The notes beneath the pieces were generated by a model. That model was not told the DNA's origin, did no database searches, and saw only the letters and a program-made list of their open reading frames with translations. A DNA stretch of 23,219 nucleotides from the IMG/VR virus record IMGVR_UViG_3300020470_002238, positions 1-23,219 of that record. One strand, 5' to 3'. The translations under genes were made by a program, and so were the position numbers. Below are positions 3,138-23,219 of the stretch, one piece after another (within the stretch, counting starts at the first letter, position 1; every line of letters begins with the position of its first letter). Source of the stretch: a virus.

Positions 3138-3212
3138 GGTCTGTTAGTTCATCGGTGAGAACACTGCCCTGTCACGGCGGAGAGAAGGGTTCGATTCCCT
3201 TACAGACCGCCA
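3138..3212 (+). tRNA. tRNA-Asp (anticodon GUC), CCA encoded
   Basis: The cloverleaf can be drawn by hand. A 7-bp acceptor stem pairs GGTCTGT (3138-3144) with ACAGACC (3202-3208). The D stem is GTTC/GAAC. The anticodon stem CTGCC/GGCGG encloses loop CTGTCAC with anticodon GTC. The variable loop has four bases, and the T arm is AAGGG/CCCTT with loop TTCGATT. The discriminator G and CCA are encoded (3209-3212). It reads GAC and GAU codons. Its own promoter ends just upstream. Confidence 0.95.
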
Positions 3213-16729: not shown

Positions 16730-16737
16730 TATAAATA
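16730..16737 (+). promoter_or_regulatory. T4-type late promoter TATAAATA
   Basis: A perfect T4 late octamer in the intergenic region, eight bases before the ATG at 16746, so any leader would be a few bases at most. Confidence 0.65.
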
Positions 16738-17530: not shown

Positions 17531-17538
17531 TATAAATA
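17531..17538 (+). promoter_or_regulatory. T4-type late promoter TATAAATA heading the curli-like block
   Basis: A perfect late octamer in the intergenic gap. The expected start is near 17545, followed by an AGGAGA ribosome site and the ATG at 17558. No other promoter is evident before the window ends, so the whole block is probably one late transcript. Confidence 0.7.
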
Positions 17539-17557
17539 CTTACGAACAGGAGAGATT

Positions 17558-17851
17558 ATGTCTATATTAACATTTTTGAGTGAAGTGGGTGTACCTATAT
17601 TTGGTGCAGTTGTTATGGGCTTTTTCATATTTTTAAGTATGAAATATATTTTCGATTCTGTTATTGGACAGATAAAAAGTACTGAAAATATTATTAACAT
17701 GTTGGAAACTCGTGCTTCGGTCATGAATAACGACATACTAAAAATCGATTTATTGGTCAGTAGTGCATTGGAGTTAACTCCACCTATTGATAGGGTTGCA
17801 AGAGCTGAAAACTTTGTAGAGGATGGAAAAATCGATGCAAGACGAGATTGA
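17558..17851 (+). CDS. Small membrane/coiled-coil protein, holin-like, 97 aa
   Basis: An N-terminal EVGVPIFGAVVMGFFIFLSMKYIF segment (residues 9-32) forms one transmembrane helix. A polar helical domain with coiled-coil character follows, then a charged tail. The pattern, short periplasmic start then one helix then cytoplasmic coiled coil, recalls BhlA/UviB-type holin-like proteins. The next gene is a clear paralogue. A strong AGGAGA site precedes the ATG. Possible roles are holin, or inner-membrane partner of the CsgG-type secretion genes downstream. Neither can be decided from sequence. Confidence 0.65.
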   Translation: MSILTFLSEVGVPIFGAVVMGFFIFLSMKYIFDSVIGQIKSTENIINMLETRASVMNNDILKIDLLVSSALELTPPIDRVARAENFVEDGKIDARRD

Positions 17852-18162
17852 TGGAAGGAATTGCCAAGATAATAGCAGAGTTCGGATTTCCAGTTGCAAT
17901 GGCACTGGGAATGGGTTACTTTATCTATTATACTTGGAAGTTTATAACAGTTGAAGTAAAACCAGCATTAGGTCGGATGTTTGCAAGTTCAATCAAACTA
18001 ACTGACCAGCTAAGAATGTTAGACCAAGATATGATAAGATTACAGCAAAAAATTAATGTAGTTTTAGAGTATCGTGAGCGTCAACAATACTTGGAAGATA
18101 TAGAAGAGAAAGAGGCTTTAGAGAAGGTAAAGGATGAAGGAAGAAAGAAGAATAAAAAGTAG
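17851..18162 (+). CDS. Paralogue of the preceding holin-like membrane protein, 103 aa
   Basis: Starts with TGATG coupling. Residues 9-31 (EFGFPVAMALGMGYFIYYTWKFI region) match the helix of the previous protein position by position: Glu, aromatic/aliphatic, Gly, aliphatic, Pro, then Met-Gly-aromatic-Phe-Ile. The cytoplasmic part (DQLRMLDQDMIRLQQKI) is a coiled coil ending in a very basic tail. The tandem pair suggests a hetero-oligomer in the inner membrane. A TTG at 17848 is a possible but less likely start. Overlaps csgF by 29 bases. Confidence 0.65.
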   Translation: MEGIAKIIAEFGFPVAMALGMGYFIYYTWKFITVEVKPALGRMFASSIKLTDQLRMLDQDMIRLQQKINVVLEYRERQQYLEDIEEKEALEKVKDEGRKKNKK

Positions 18163-18679
18163 TTTAGAACTACTTGCATTAGTGTTTGTTTTCCTTGTTG
18201 GAATAATTGGATTAACACCAAATGCAAATGCTGATGAAATTAAACATCAGTTTAAGAATCCAAGCTTTAGTGGAATTGGAACGGGCGCACATTATCTTAC
18301 CATTGAGAACCAAGAATTCTCGCGTAAGAAAGCAATAGAAGATGCAATGGAAGCTGCAAGAAAGGCTGCAGAAAGAGAAGAAGATAACACAACGCTTGCA
18401 AAATTTATTAGAAACCTTGAGAGCAGAATTTATGCTCAAATGGCAAAACAGCTAGTAGAATCTATGTTTTCAAATGATAACCCAGTAAGATTTGGGTCAT
18501 TTGTTTTAGAAGGTTCAACAGTCACATACGAGGTCATCACAAATGAAGATGGCACTGAGTTTATCAGAATGACTATTGTCGACCAAGAAGGTTCAACCAC
18601 AGTTATTGAAATACCAATAGGTACAGGTTATTTCGGTGATGATGGTACAGGTGATGGTTCTGGTGATGGGGGCGGTTAA
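18134..18679 (+). CDS. csgF: CsgF-like curli assembly protein
   Basis: 181 residues. A signal peptide (basic start, hydrophobic 11-27, likely cleavage after ANA at 33) is followed by DEIKHQFKNPSFSGIGTGAHYL. This matches the N-terminal part of CsgF (phenylalanine, Asn-Pro-x-Phe-x-Gly), which inserts into the CsgG pore as a second constriction. A long helix with a LESRIYAQM segment and a beta-rich domain (SFVLEGSTVTYEV then TTVIEIPIG) also follow CsgF order. The extra C-terminal tail is Gly/Asp-rich. In curli systems CsgF links the outer-membrane pore to the fibre nucleator at the cell surface. The adjacent CsgG supports the call. Confidence 0.85.
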   Translation: MKEERRIKSSLELLALVFVFLVGIIGLTPNANADEIKHQFKNPSFSGIGTGAHYLTIENQEFSRKKAIEDAMEAARKAAEREEDNTTLAKFIRNLESRIYAQMAKQLVESMFSNDNPVRFGSFVLEGSTVTYEVITNEDGTEFIRMTIVDQEGSTTVIEIPIGTGYFGDDGTGDGSGDGGG

Positions 18680-19692
18680 TGAAATGGTTTCTTATATTAA
18701 CCTTATCGTTTCTCACAGGTTGTGCATCATTTCCTAAGTGGTCAGAAAGTCCAGCGGATTGTGCATACGAAACTGGGAAGTATGGTGATGGTTACAAAAA
18801 AGATTTAGTCACAGGTGTCGCAAAGGCATGGACTAGAAAGTACATATGTGTAGAAAGTCCTACAGCAGTAAGACTGCCTGCATATATTGATTTATTAAAT
18901 TTACCACCAGCAAAAGAAAAACCAATAGTTGCAGTATATTCATTTTCAGATTTAACTGGTCAAAGAAAACAATTAGATTCATATGCATCCTTCTCTACAG
19001 CAGTGACTCAAGGGTCAAGTGCAATGTTAATAGATGCATTAAAGAGTGCTGGTGGTGGTACATGGTTTAGAGTTGTTGAAAGAAGTGGTTTAGACCACTT
19101 AGTAAGAGAAAGACAAATTATTCGTTCTGCAAGACAAGAGTGGGCAGATGCAAAGAACGAAGAAGCAAAAGGTATTGCACCACTTCTATTCGCTGGAATG
19201 ATTATAGAAGGTGGTATTATTGGCTATGATACTAATCTTAAAACAGGTGGGCGAGGCGCACGAACACTTGGTATTGGATATAGTAAACAGTATCGTCAAG
19301 ATGCTGTTACAGTTTCTATTAGGGCTGTTTCAGTTCTAACAGGTGAAGTATTATTAAATGTCCAATCACGAAAGACTATCCTTTCGTATGGTTCTGGGGG
19401 CGATGTATTTAGATTCATCGAAGAAGGAACTCAACTCGTAGAGATTGAGGACGGCGTGGGAAATAATGAGTCGGTGACATACGCAACACGAAGTGCTATT
19501 GAGGCAGGAGTGTTGGAATTAATTTACCAAGGACATGATAGGGGTTTTTGGGTAATCGAGGAAGGACATAGGCATCCACACCAAGTGGGAGATGTAAACG
19601 AAAAACACGAATTAGATGAGTGGTATGATGAAGTTTCAGAAATCACTGGTAATGATGATAAACCTTTCGAGGAGCTTAACGAAAATGAATAA
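18679..19692 (+). CDS. csgG: CsgG-like outer-membrane secretion lipoprotein
   Basis: 337 residues. A short signal peptide ends in a lipobox LTGC with lipidated Cys15. The core follows E. coli CsgG closely: VAVYSFSDLTGQRKQ, SYASFSTAVTQG, a MLIDALK helix, WFRVVERSGLDHLVRERQII, then IIEGGIIGYDTNLKTGGRGARTLGIG, and VSVLTGEVLLNVQSRKTILSYG. CsgG forms the nonameric outer-membrane pore that exports curli subunits unfolded. About 40 extra residues at the C-terminus are acidic and His-containing. TAATG coupling to csgF. CsgE, the usual periplasmic gate, is absent from the window. The phage would use host Sec and Lol pathways for its placement. Confidence 0.93.
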   Translation: MKWFLILTLSFLTGCASFPKWSESPADCAYETGKYGDGYKKDLVTGVAKAWTRKYICVESPTAVRLPAYIDLLNLPPAKEKPIVAVYSFSDLTGQRKQLDSYASFSTAVTQGSSAMLIDALKSAGGGTWFRVVERSGLDHLVRERQIIRSARQEWADAKNEEAKGIAPLLFAGMIIEGGIIGYDTNLKTGGRGARTLGIGYSKQYRQDAVTVSIRAVSVLTGEVLLNVQSRKTILSYGSGGDVFRFIEEGTQLVEIEDGVGNNESVTYATRSAIEAGVLELIYQGHDRGFWVIEEGHRHPHQVGDVNEKHELDEWYDEVSEITGNDDKPFEELNENE

Positions 19693-20422
19693 AAAACTTT
19701 TAAGTTTAATCTTTTTAGGATTTTTGTCGACTAATATTCTTTTTGCACAAGCGACTGATGATAATGAAATAAGAATAGACCAAGAAGGTGATACACTTAC
19801 ATTGCTTATTGACCAAGTAGGTTTTGGTAACAAAGTTGCCAACAACTCAGCTGCAGATGAGAAAATGGTTATCACAGGTACTACGCTTACTATTGATATT
19901 GACCAAATTGGAAACCAAAACAAAATATTCGGGCCTTTGATTGCCGACACATCAGATTTTGATTTGTCATTTACAGGTGATTCAAATATCCTAGATTGGA
20001 ATATTGGTTATCAAGGGTCTGCTGACGATTCGGTTTATGATATTACAGTCACAGGTGACAGTAATACATGGGATTTAGACCAAGGTTATCAGTTTAGTGC
20101 AGAGCGACTAGACTTAGATATGACGATTTTAGGTAATTCAAATGTCTTTGATTTAGACTTTGAATCAGATGATTTAACATTTAATTGGGAAATTACTGGT
20201 GACAGTAACAACCTAAATGTTTTGCAGAAAGATGGTTCACATACTCAGACTGTAGATTATACAGGTGATGGTGGGGACATTGATATTAACCAAATATCTG
20301 GAACATGTGTTTCTGGTGCTGGTAATTCATGTGCATCACCAGATGGTAAAATCATCATGGATATAGATTCTGATAATGCGACAATTACAATCAATCAGAA
20401 AGATTCTTCTAACGACAGTTAG
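19685..20422 (+). CDS. Curlin-like repeat protein 1, secreted, 245 aa
   Basis: Signal peptide (residues 1-21, cleavage near LFA) followed by DDNEIRIDQ and a series of irregular repeats about 20-30 residues long. They alternate short strands with polar turns: IDQVGFGN, IDQIGNQN, FTGDSN, VTGDSN, ILGNSN, ITGDSN, INQ. This Ile/Val-x-Gln/Asn-x-Gly-x-Asn pattern resembles curlin (CsgA/CsgB) repeats, which stack into a beta-solenoid amyloid. The protein is highly acidic, with one Cys pair late on. As the product of the gene right after CsgG, it is the natural secretion substrate. Its last codons overlap the next gene by 47 bases. A tail-fibre or other virion role cannot be excluded. Confidence 0.75.
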   Translation: MNKKLLSLIFLGFLSTNILFAQATDDNEIRIDQEGDTLTLLIDQVGFGNKVANNSAADEKMVITGTTLTIDIDQIGNQNKIFGPLIADTSDFDLSFTGDSNILDWNIGYQGSADDSVYDITVTGDSNTWDLDQGYQFSAERLDLDMTILGNSNVFDLDFESDDLTFNWEITGDSNNLNVLQKDGSHTQTVDYTGDGGDIDINQISGTCVSGAGNSCASPDGKIIMDIDSDNATITINQKDSSNDS

Positions 20423-21518
20423 TCTATTTACTCTTATGGGGTCGGTTTATGCTGACTCCATAGGAGATATAGTTGAATCTACAGGTGTAGGTGGAATTGT
20501 AAGAAACAATGAAACTTTACCTCATGATGTCGGTTCAGACATCGTTTTATATGATGAAGCACGAACAGTAAATGGTCGTATGTTGATAGAGTTCTTAGAT
20601 AAAGAAGAACTTGCATTGACTGAACATACTAGAGTGTATATTGATGAAGTTTATTATGACCCTAATCCATCGTTATCCAAGATGTCAATTAGAATGGCAA
20701 GAGGGACAGCAAGGTTTGCAAGTGGAAGCGGGAAGAAAATTAAGAAGGCAAACATACAGGTATCCACACCTACAGCACAGATTGCTATAAATGGAACAGA
20801 TTTTACAACTACAATTGATGAGCTTGGTAGGTCACTTGTAGTACTTCTGCCAGATGATGATGGTTCTGCATCTGGAGAAATAGTGGTGAGTAATGAAGGT
20901 GGTGAAACATTATTGAATCAACCTTACCAAGCAACTATGGTATCGTCTTTAGAGACTCCACCAACAGTTGCAGTAACGATTAATAATATAACACCTAATA
21001 TGATTAATAATATGTTTATTGTTAATCCACCACAAGAGGTCAAGGTTGCAATACAAGAACAAGTTGCAGATGACCTAGATAAAGACCAAGGAATTTTAGA
21101 TGTAGATTTTCTAGAGTTTAATGAGTTAGAACAAGATGAACTCAAAGAAACAGAAGAAGATTTAGATTATTCTGCATTAGATATAGATGCATTAAATGTA
21201 GACTTACTTGTAGATGTACTTGATGTCATAGAGGCATTAGATAAGAAAATAAGAGGTGCATCAGCAGAAGGTGCTAGTGGTAATATTGGAACTTTTAGAG
21301 TTGAAGGTGCAGTATTAGGATTAAACCAAGACTCACAATACAATGTCTTTATTGAAGATGAAAAGTTAATCTTCTTTAGAGATGTAAATGGAGTTATTGA
21401 AATTGCATTTGATAGTGCTTCAAATGTATATTTAGAAACAATAGTAGAAGGATATGAAGGAGTAATCCTCATAGGAGATGGAGATGATTCGACAATTATT
21501 ATTAATCAGTCTAATTAG
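20376..21518 (+). CDS. FecR-domain protein with signal peptide and curlin-like tail, 380 aa
   Basis: A signal peptide (1-26, ending VYA) is followed by a FecR-type beta domain (about 30-185). It has the recognisable order VGSDIVLYDEARTVNGRMLIEFLDKEELALTEHTRVYIDE and later VSTPTAQIAINGTDF. An acidic helical region (225-300) and a C-terminal beta region ending DDSTIIINQSN follow, the last resembling a curlin repeat. FecR domains occur in periplasmic or surface sensor proteins; the classical FecR is an iron-dicitrate regulator. With no sigma factor or TonB receptor nearby, a structural or sensing role in the curli-like assembly is more likely. It overlaps both neighbours (47 and 35 bases). Confidence 0.75.
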   Translation: MRQLQSIRKILLTTVSLFTLMGSVYADSIGDIVESTGVGGIVRNNETLPHDVGSDIVLYDEARTVNGRMLIEFLDKEELALTEHTRVYIDEVYYDPNPSLSKMSIRMARGTARFASGSGKKIKKANIQVSTPTAQIAINGTDFTTTIDELGRSLVVLLPDDDGSASGEIVVSNEGGETLLNQPYQATMVSSLETPPTVAVTINNITPNMINNMFIVNPPQEVKVAIQEQVADDLDKDQGILDVDFLEFNELEQDELKETEEDLDYSALDIDALNVDLLVDVLDVIEALDKKIRGASAEGASGNIGTFRVEGAVLGLNQDSQYNVFIEDEKLIFFRDVNGVIEIAFDSASNVYLETIVEGYEGVILIGDGDDSTIIINQSN

Positions 21519-22287
21519 TATTGGGTTACCAGTATTTGCTGGGCCTAGTGATGACAACCATATTCACATAGACCAAGTAAATGGTGGTGATGATTTTACT
21601 CTTTCAATTGACCAGATTGGTTGGGCAAACATGATTAGATTTTCTGCTGACCATGATGACAACACATTAGACCTTTTACAGTCTGGAAACAACATGTATA
21701 TTGGATATACAGATGCATGGGGTTCTGGTTATAATTGGGGTGGAGATTTAGATGGACTCAGAAACGAAGTTGATATAAGACAAAAATGTTCTTATGCAAC
21801 TTGTAATGATACTGATTTTCAATTTCATATCTGGGGTGACGATAATCAAGTTGTATTTGGTCAAGGTTATTCTCTTAATAATAGTTTAACACCAACTTGG
21901 AATTACGATAACAATGAGCCTGGCGGAAACTTTGTAAGATTAGATATACATGGTGATGATAACAAATTCAAAGGAAGTCAAAAACAAGATTCAAGTTCAA
22001 TTAATCATTCTATTACTGCAAACATATATGCAGACAATACAGATGTATATGCTAGACAAGCACAGAATGGAAACAAAACTCTTAACTTAACAATCTATAG
22101 TGATTGGAGTGAGGTTGATATTAATCAAAGAGATAATGGAGCTCACACTGCAACAATTATATTACAAGGTACACAACCAACAGACTTGTTCTTAACCCAA
22201 AAGGGTGGTACAACTCAAACCTATAATTTAACACAAAATTGTGTTACTTCTGGTGGTTGTAATGTTTCTGTAACCCAAGGTAATTAA
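21484..22287 (+). CDS. Curlin-like repeat protein 2, secreted, 267 aa
   Basis: Starts at ATG 21484 with AGGAG six bases upstream; the in-frame ATG at 21478 has no room for a ribosome site. The signal peptide (1-19) is followed by DDNHIHIDQ and FTLSIDQIGWAN, matching the mature start of curlin-like protein 1. Further repeats include LDLLQSGNN, WGDDNQVVFGQG, IHGDDNKF, a NADVY-type strand and VSVTQGN at the end. It has several Trp and Tyr and a Cys pair (in QKCSYATC) plus a second near the end (NCVTSGGC). A likely second export substrate, perhaps nucleator versus main subunit as in CsgB/CsgA, though which is which cannot be told. Confidence 0.72.
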   Translation: MIRQLLLISLISIGLPVFAGPSDDNHIHIDQVNGGDDFTLSIDQIGWANMIRFSADHDDNTLDLLQSGNNMYIGYTDAWGSGYNWGGDLDGLRNEVDIRQKCSYATCNDTDFQFHIWGDDNQVVFGQGYSLNNSLTPTWNYDNNEPGGNFVRLDIHGDDNKFKGSQKQDSSSINHSITANIYADNTDVYARQAQNGNKTLNLTIYSDWSEVDINQRDNGAHTATIILQGTQPTDLFLTQKGGTTQTYNLTQNCVTSGGCNVSVTQGN

Positions 22288-22301
22288 AGGAGTTATTTTG
22301 A

Positions 22302-22529
22302 GTGACAGATTCCAAACCCAAAAGAGAATTTTCAACTTTTGTAAGGATGCCTTACCAAGATGCAATCGCATTATTACTCAAAACTATGGATTACCATTCA
22401 ATAATGGCAATTCAATCAACAGATAAAAACTACAAACAGTTTCACGAAAAACAACATCGAAGACTTAAGGATTGGATGCTTGATATGAAAGACTATATAA
22501 TAGAACTGGAAGAGGAATTGAATGTATAA
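22302..22529 (+). CDS. Hypothetical coiled-coil protein, 75 aa
   Basis: Starts with GTG at 22302, nine bases after a strong AAAGGAG site (22286-22292). It is a soluble helical protein with a His/Lys-rich middle and a C-terminal IIELEEEL coiled-coil segment. No signal peptide, unlike its neighbours, so it stays in the cytoplasm. Not recognised. Its last codons overlap the CHASE2 gene. Confidence 0.65.
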   Translation: MTDSKPKREFSTFVRMPYQDAIALLLKTMDYHSIMAIQSTDKNYKQFHEKQHRRLKDWMLDMKDYIIELEEELNV

Positions 22530-23219
22530 CTGGAAAACAGTTCTAATCACATTGGGTGTATTAGTAGGTTTAAAAATATGGTCACCATACCTTGTAGATA
22601 ATATCAAGTGGTCTTACTTTGATGTTCTACATCAACAGAAAGGTGAAAAACTAATAGAAGACATTGTACTTGTTGATATTGATGAGAAGTCATTAGACAA
22701 GTATGGACAGTATCCATGGCCTCGTAATATCTATGCAGATATTATGTTAGACTCACACTACACCAATACTCATGTATTTACTCAAGTATTCAATCAACCA
22801 GATAGATTTGGTGGAGATGAACAATTTGCAGAAGGTCTTGTAAATAGATTAAGTATCTTATCTGCAGCTCCAACAAGTCAAAAGGATACTGGTTCTGCAC
22901 CATATGTAAAGACTTCGGTCTTCGGTGGTGGAGATATTAAAGATTCTATCTGGAACTTTTCTGGTATATCTGCACCTATCAAAGTGCTACAAGATAACAC
23001 TTATGGTGTAGGAGTGACAGTAACCACACCACCTTTACCAGATACACCAAACTTTGATGGAACTGTTCGGTCTGCACCACTTATCGTATCTGCAAATGAC
23101 CAGATATATCCATCGGTTGCATTAGAAACCCTTCGTGCATATTACGACCAACCAAATTATCAAACCAGAGTCACACCAGAAGTAGGTATAGAATGGATAC
23201 GAATGGGAAGACAACCACC
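22522..23219 (+). CDS. CHASE2-domain membrane protein, 3'-truncated
   Basis: The frame is open to the window end (232 codons). An N-terminal transmembrane helix (about 6-22) is followed by a typical CHASE2 sensor domain: VLVDIDEKSLDKYGQYPWPRNIYADIM, a GGDEQFAEGL segment, then the repeated small/polar stretch before FDGTVRSAPLIV and YPSVALETLRAYY. CHASE2 is an extracellular sensor domain of bacterial adenylate cyclases and kinases; in bacteria it often occurs with FecR domains, and a FecR protein lies two genes upstream here. What output domain follows is not visible. ATG 22522 overlaps the preceding stop and has a GAGGAA site. Confidence 0.82.
   Translation, partial: MYNWKTVLITLGVLVGLKIWSPYLVDNIKWSYFDVLHQQKGEKLIEDIVLVDIDEKSLDKYGQYPWPRNIYADIMLDSHYTNTHVFTQVFNQPDRFGGDEQFAEGLVNRLSILSAAPTSQKDTGSAPYVKTSVFGGGDIKDSIWNFSGISAPIKVLQDNTYGVGVTVTTPPLPDTPNFDGTVRSAPLIVSANDQIYPSVALETLRAYYDQPNYQTRVTPEVGIEWIRMGRQP

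Follow-up and report, generated by a model that had tools for sequence, protein, structure and literature searches.

The stretch analysed here (the window) is a virus contig of 23,219 bases, IMG/VR record IMGVR_UViG_3300020470_002238, whose 3' part carries a gene block that probably encodes a type VIII (curli) secretion system (T8SS) of the phage. Over positions 17558-23219 the genes follow the order TM1-TM2-CsgF-CsgG-curlin1-FecR-curlin2-(75-aa ORF)-CHASE2, where TM1 and TM2 are small membrane proteins, aa stands for amino acids and ORF for open reading frame. When the window proteins were compared with Pfam, CsgF, CsgG, FecR and CHASE2 scored above the cut-off, curlin1 scored below it and curlin2 gave no match alone. 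Signal peptides and membrane topology were assigned by eye, and about 465 fetched phage loci served as the comparison set. The components by which a type VIII system is recognised, namely a CsgG pore lipoprotein, CsgF and a curlin-repeat substrate with a Sec signal, are all predicted in this block. An earlier note on this DNA had described a nearly complete curli-like system, probably expressed late, and the comparisons agree with it: the genes that it named all lie where it had placed them, and the overlap of nearly all gene ends was found at seven of the eight junctions. Its gene list lacked the 75-aa ORF, and the window stops inside the CHASE2 gene.

The profile of the phage CsgG matched solved CsgG with an E value of 1.7e-65 and with the whole pore domain aligned, and the lipobox Cys15 pointed out in the earlier note is invariant in 20 relatives. 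The phage CsgF profile, compared with solved CsgG-CsgF entries, gave a weak match to the first 52 residues of CsgF (E 0.008). A search for CsgH in nine records gave no match above the cut-off, and the control was likewise below the cut-off.

The curlin-like identity of the two putative substrates, which had been proposed together with their signal peptides, is weak when each protein is taken singly and becomes clear when relatives are included. Curlin1 alone matched the Curlin_rpt family below the Pfam cut-off. Among the relatives of curlin2, Curlin_rpt was detected in 13 of 20 members (best 5e-8), and the curlin2 profile matched solved curlins (8c50, 1.2e-6; 8enq, 5.6e-4); it is because of this profile evidence, and not of a folded model, that curlin2 is assigned. 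Additionally, the curlin2 alignment contains indels of repeat length, and the profiles of curlin1 and curlin2 matched each other in hhalign (Table 1). The AlphaFold model of curlin1 is all-beta with moderate confidence (pLDDT 75, pTM 0.71), and beta-helix folds were among the weak matches of its structure search. In the cultured phage HTVC008M, curlin2 (L082:10558-11880) has a PA14 domain (2.7e-6) ahead of its curlin repeats (5e-8), which suggests an adhesive head on a fibre subunit.

In the FecR protein the FecR domain comes immediately after the signal peptide, and neither a cytoplasmic anti-sigma domain nor a transmembrane helix was found in this protein. The domain itself corresponds to the periplasmic signalling domain of FecR/PupR proteins, both by Pfam and by a Foldseek match of the FecR model to the C-terminal signalling domain of PupR (7e-4). 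It is important to mention that the protein ends in a short strand, for example NEITIEQ or STIIINQSN, whose pattern is that of a curlin half-repeat. In a strict form, this pattern was found in 233 of 245 phage FecRs, with 117 different tails, as compared with 2 of 2531 other ORFs, and the same strict pattern occurs in the curlins themselves (curlin1, 193/273; curlin2, 95/172). As FecR often overlaps curlin2, we considered that the tail might be forced by the curlin2 reading frame; this was rejected, since 51 of the 53 loci without any ORF across the end of FecR retain the tail. The pattern suggests that FecR docks through this strand on the curli fibre or the pore and is not a classical FecR regulator.

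The last gene of the window is read as a CHASE2-adenylate cyclase, its putative cyclase domain being read from relatives only. A near-identical relative (L002) contains CHASE2 plus Guanylate_cyc (2.2e-18), and the residues expected of a class III nucleotide cyclase (two metal Asp, Lys and Arg) are present in the relatives, where D, KD and R were all matched in 153 of 159. The earlier note had taken FecR and CHASE2 as a pair of sensors; CHASE2 stands as the sensor half of a cyclase, and FecR is not a membrane anti-sigma regulator.

TM1 and TM2 match one and the same PHROG, phrog_18771, and are therefore paralogues, as had been noted. Members of the family are no longer than 135 aa; a single membrane helix is predicted in them, and their charged tail is a coiled coil. 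In PMC9599517, small genes of the cassette are labelled histidine kinases. We rejected this label for TM1 and TM2: no kinase family was detected in 20 members, all within the length just given, HisKA and HATPase domains were not found in the pair, and His is absent altogether from about half of the members. A holin reading was likewise set aside, as only sub-threshold matches were obtained (E 0.17-0.77). The pair is present in 74-76 of 85 wide-flank loci, in 23 of them on the opposite strand; the TM genes may switch strand or sit behind the cyclase and still lie inside the cassette, so that the linkage outlasts rearrangement. A reverse search starting from TM1 and TM2 yielded 55 wide loci, all of which contained T8SS parts and both TM genes, and 47 of which contained CsgG. 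Moreover, among 50,697 phage records TM1 was found only in six records of HTVC008M and Melnitz; these are also the six FecR records and, apart from one record of 1.5 kb, the CsgG records. By these counts the pair is close to specific for the T8SS cassette. That it forms part of an inner-membrane sensor arm is our inference.

A late promoter had been proposed for the block on the basis of an exact TATAAATA, the T4-type late promoter element, ahead of TM1. The match is exact, and the number of exact copies in the window is at chance level (2 found, 2.9 expected), so the relatives were used instead. The element lies within -150 to +60 of TM1 in 59 of 79 relatives, versus 2.5 expected in random stretches, and its position is mostly -12 to -34. 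In a 140-kb relative (G002), 9 of 15 copies lie 8-60 nucleotides (nt) upstream of an ORF start (0.5 expected), and copies precede the scaffold, portal, tail sheath, head-tail adaptor and baseplate genes, that is, the placement just upstream of late genes by which T4-type late promoters are predicted. This positional conservation, together with the presence of the element before virion structural genes, makes late expression of the curli block likely. According to PMC7029224, late promoters were sought in these phages and not found.

In L038, L080, L028 and similar loci the element lies 13 nt upstream of the TM1 ATG, so that a T4-type start would yield a leaderless mRNA from the TM1 start codon; unlike these, TM1 of the window is preceded by a short leader that includes a ribosome site. 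The other exact TATAAATA of the window (16730-16737) is located 16 nt upstream of the ATG of a small ORF (16746), perhaps another late gene.

The features of the block are listed in Table 1. Values of dN/dS ranged from 0.07 to 0.49 across its genes, with curlin2 as the fastest-changing one at the upper end; by this estimate all block genes are under purifying selection.

Table 1. Features predicted in the curli block of the window (positions refer to the window).
Feature	Position	Strand	Evidence and remarks
TATAAATA, T4-type late promoter element	17531..17538	+	Exact match; TM1 start codon 27 nt downstream of first base
TM1, 97 aa, single transmembrane helix, predicted cytoplasmic coiled coil	17558..17851	+	phrog_18771, 1.7e-22
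TM2, 104-aa paralogue of TM1	17848..18162	+	phrog_18771, 3.7e-25
CsgF with signal peptide	18134..18679	+	Pfam CsgF, 8.2e-15
CsgG, predicted outer-membrane lipoprotein pore, lipobox LTGC, Cys15	18679..19692	+	Pfam CsgG, 4.7e-54
Curlin-like subunit 1 (curlin1), signal peptide	19685..20422	+	Curlin_rpt, 0.0028; hhalign to curlin2, 99.7% probability
Exported FecR-domain protein, C-terminal curlin half-repeat STIIINQSN	20376..21518	+	Pfam FecR, 6.5e-9
Curlin-like subunit 2 (curlin2), signal peptide; ORF start possibly 21478	21484..22287	+	Profile matches to solved curlins
75-aa ORF between curlin2 and CHASE2	22302..22529	+	Mainly in close relatives; dN/dS 0.17-0.40
CHASE2 part of transmembrane adenylate/guanylate cyclase, ends at window edge	22522..23219	+	CHASE2, 2e-16

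The first 80 IMG/VR loci show an identical gene order as far as each of them reaches. Further scans added more distant phage contigs. Each of the 85 wide-flank phage loci encodes CsgF, CsgG, FecR, the cyclase and one or more curlins, and 68 of them have two curlins; these loci are mutually related and were mostly chosen by CsgG. The window itself carries T4-like replication genes (the end of gp46, the sliding clamp and the clamp loader), and its clamp loader is nearest to those of pelagiphage Mosig and methylophage Melnitz (60-62%). A tRNA-Asp(gtc) gene is located at 3138-3212. In several large cassette contigs (92-237 kb) the T4 major capsid gene gp23 was not detected, while two others, of 300-337 kb, carry a distant version of it. 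The cassette is thus not limited to contigs with gp23; some of the records may be fragments. A search for RNA polymerase in the non-T4 contigs gave no match, and the control was silent too.

In the CsgG tree, one bacterial sequence, from Hyphomonas sp. TMED17 (L090), falls into a single group with the phage sequences (100/98), against other bacterial CsgG; the L090 branch is long and its exact placement unsure. The TMED17 sequence lies on a 705-kb contig on which CsgF-CsgG-curlin-FecR-CHASE2-cyclase stand in the same order as in the phage cassette, amid ordinary chromosomal genes. The operon differs from the cassette in that it has a single curlin, its FecR is without the curlin tail, and the fetched stretch contains no TM pair. 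It is rare: searches of 385 genomes of its class and 105 of its family gave no full-length FecR match besides TMED17. Phage curli contigs also occur in assemblies filed as Synechococcus, Bacteroidota and others (L084, L086-L089), apparently as binning contamination in metagenome bins.

We read the block as a probable type VIII (curli) secretion cassette of the phage, in which a late surface-fibre system is combined with a sensor arm of its own. The T4-type promoter would turn the cassette on late in infection, CsgG and CsgF would assemble in the host outer membrane, and both curlins would exit through this pore and form fibres on the infected cell. FecR might dock through its C-terminal half-repeat on the growing fibre or the pore, and its FecR domain might relay the state of the fibre or pore to the CHASE2 sensor, which would set cAMP production, with the TM1/TM2 pair as part of the inner-membrane arm. 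The most likely task of such fibres would be to stick infected cells or debris to their neighbours, or to form a coat on the cell. A more specific version is possible, and we put it forward tentatively: in such secretion-coupled signalling FecR would be a fibre client or cap that reports to the CHASE2-cyclase and TM1/TM2, making the cassette a self-monitoring amyloid machine. The SAR11 and OM43 hosts are reported, in PMC9599517 and PMC9004378, to lack curli genes.

Several observations weigh against this fibre system. The curlin1 model found no significant match in the structure search, and much of the Gln ladder is absent from curlin1. The FecR C-terminal region is poorly predicted in its model, so that docking is proposed from the sequence. 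The locus counts given above do not represent independent events. About 43% of the cyclases (68-70/159; Melnitz-type) have Ser for the usual Asn, and that of L038 (L038:13299-15134) is without one metal Asp, the first metal Asp being Tyr. The authors of PMC9004378 observed no clumping of infected cells. Lastly, CsgE, for which the earlier note had suggested a search, was found in none of seven phage records of 114-151 kb (the E. coli control was positive). CsgE is the gate of CsgG in E. coli; this gate is not essential in all T8SS lineages.

The same molecular evidence would fit a surface coat against superinfecting phages or grazers instead of aggregation, and the fast change of curlin2 would suit a protein exposed at the surface; a coat that appears only at a late stage of infection would give little protection, and we regard this purpose as unlikely. 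PMC9004378 proposes for Melnitz a CsgG/CsgF that has diverged from curli into a pinholin- or secretin-like depolarising channel that times lysis. The late promoter, the lack of a detected CsgE and the two holin-sized membrane proteins, weak as their holin matches are, would suit such a channel, but the proposal assumed that curlins are missing, whereas Melnitz has two annotated curlin-repeat genes and every wide locus retains at least one curlin. Moreover, curlins and a curlin-tailed FecR would be superfluous for a lysis pore, and CsgG aligns to solved CsgG across the whole pore domain; we find a lysis channel improbable.

PMC7029224 and PMC9599517 suggest that the pore takes up large nutrients or siderophores and that FecR senses iron. 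CsgG is wide, no gate was found and a FecR domain is present; this idea nevertheless leaves the two curlins and the curlin-like FecR tail unexplained, FecR is without anti-sigma and membrane parts, no partner receptor was seen, and late expression is poor timing for feeding, all of which makes it very improbable. Least probable of all is that the curlins are virion components, i.e. tail fibres or adhesins on the particle, an alternative that the earlier note had kept as ordinary tail components. The late promoter is common to structural genes and the PA14 domain of HTVC008M curlin2 is an adhesion domain, but with Sec signal peptides and an outer-membrane pore dedicated to them the curlins would leave the cytoplasm, where virions assemble, and no tail-family match lends the alternative sequence support. 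The late surface-fibre system is thus the reading that we retain. Modules of the curli type are widespread among marine phages, and the comparisons turn a vague annotation into concrete parts: a tagged FecR, a dedicated membrane pair mislabelled as kinases, a late promoter and a similarly ordered bacterial operon. If phages do coat infected cells with amyloid, views of how viruses drive aggregation and gene exchange in the ocean would change.

The cassette of the window is a further instance of an already published module, and the novelty implied in the earlier note does not hold. CsgF and CsgG were reported in pelagimyophages by Zaragoza-Solas et al. in 2020 (PMC7029224), and PMC9599517 (2022) gives the order small gene(s), CsgF, CsgG, CsgA/B, FecR, CsgA/B, cyclase in podo- and myo-pelagiphages, an order which the window cassette shares and which is represented by HTVC008M (NC_020484), where the whole cassette is present. 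Two points of that paper are not upheld here: the kinase label, and the statement that FecR and cyclase are outside bacterial curli operons, which the TMED17 operon contradicts. The methylophage Melnitz is said in PMC9004378 to be missing csgA/csgB; its GenBank record (L083) holds the same whole cassette, with two genes annotated as curlin repeat. In the open-access literature searched, the FecR tail, the linkage of the TM pair and the promoter conservation are absent from earlier reports; these predicted features, with the TM-pair specificity, the TMED17 operon and the contigs without gp23, would be our additions to published work. The curli system of E. coli (csgBAC-csgDEFG) shares CsgG, CsgF and curlin subunits with the phage cassette, which adds FecR, the CHASE2-cyclase and the TM pair and in which CsgE was not found; CsgC and CsgD were not seen in it, no search having been aimed at them. 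Finally, the BiofilmReg operon of Burkholderia (PMC5192318) has a histidine kinase in place of the cyclase and no curli genes, but like the cassette it encodes an exported FecR-domain protein beside a CHASE2 sensor, and thus provides a precedent for this arrangement.

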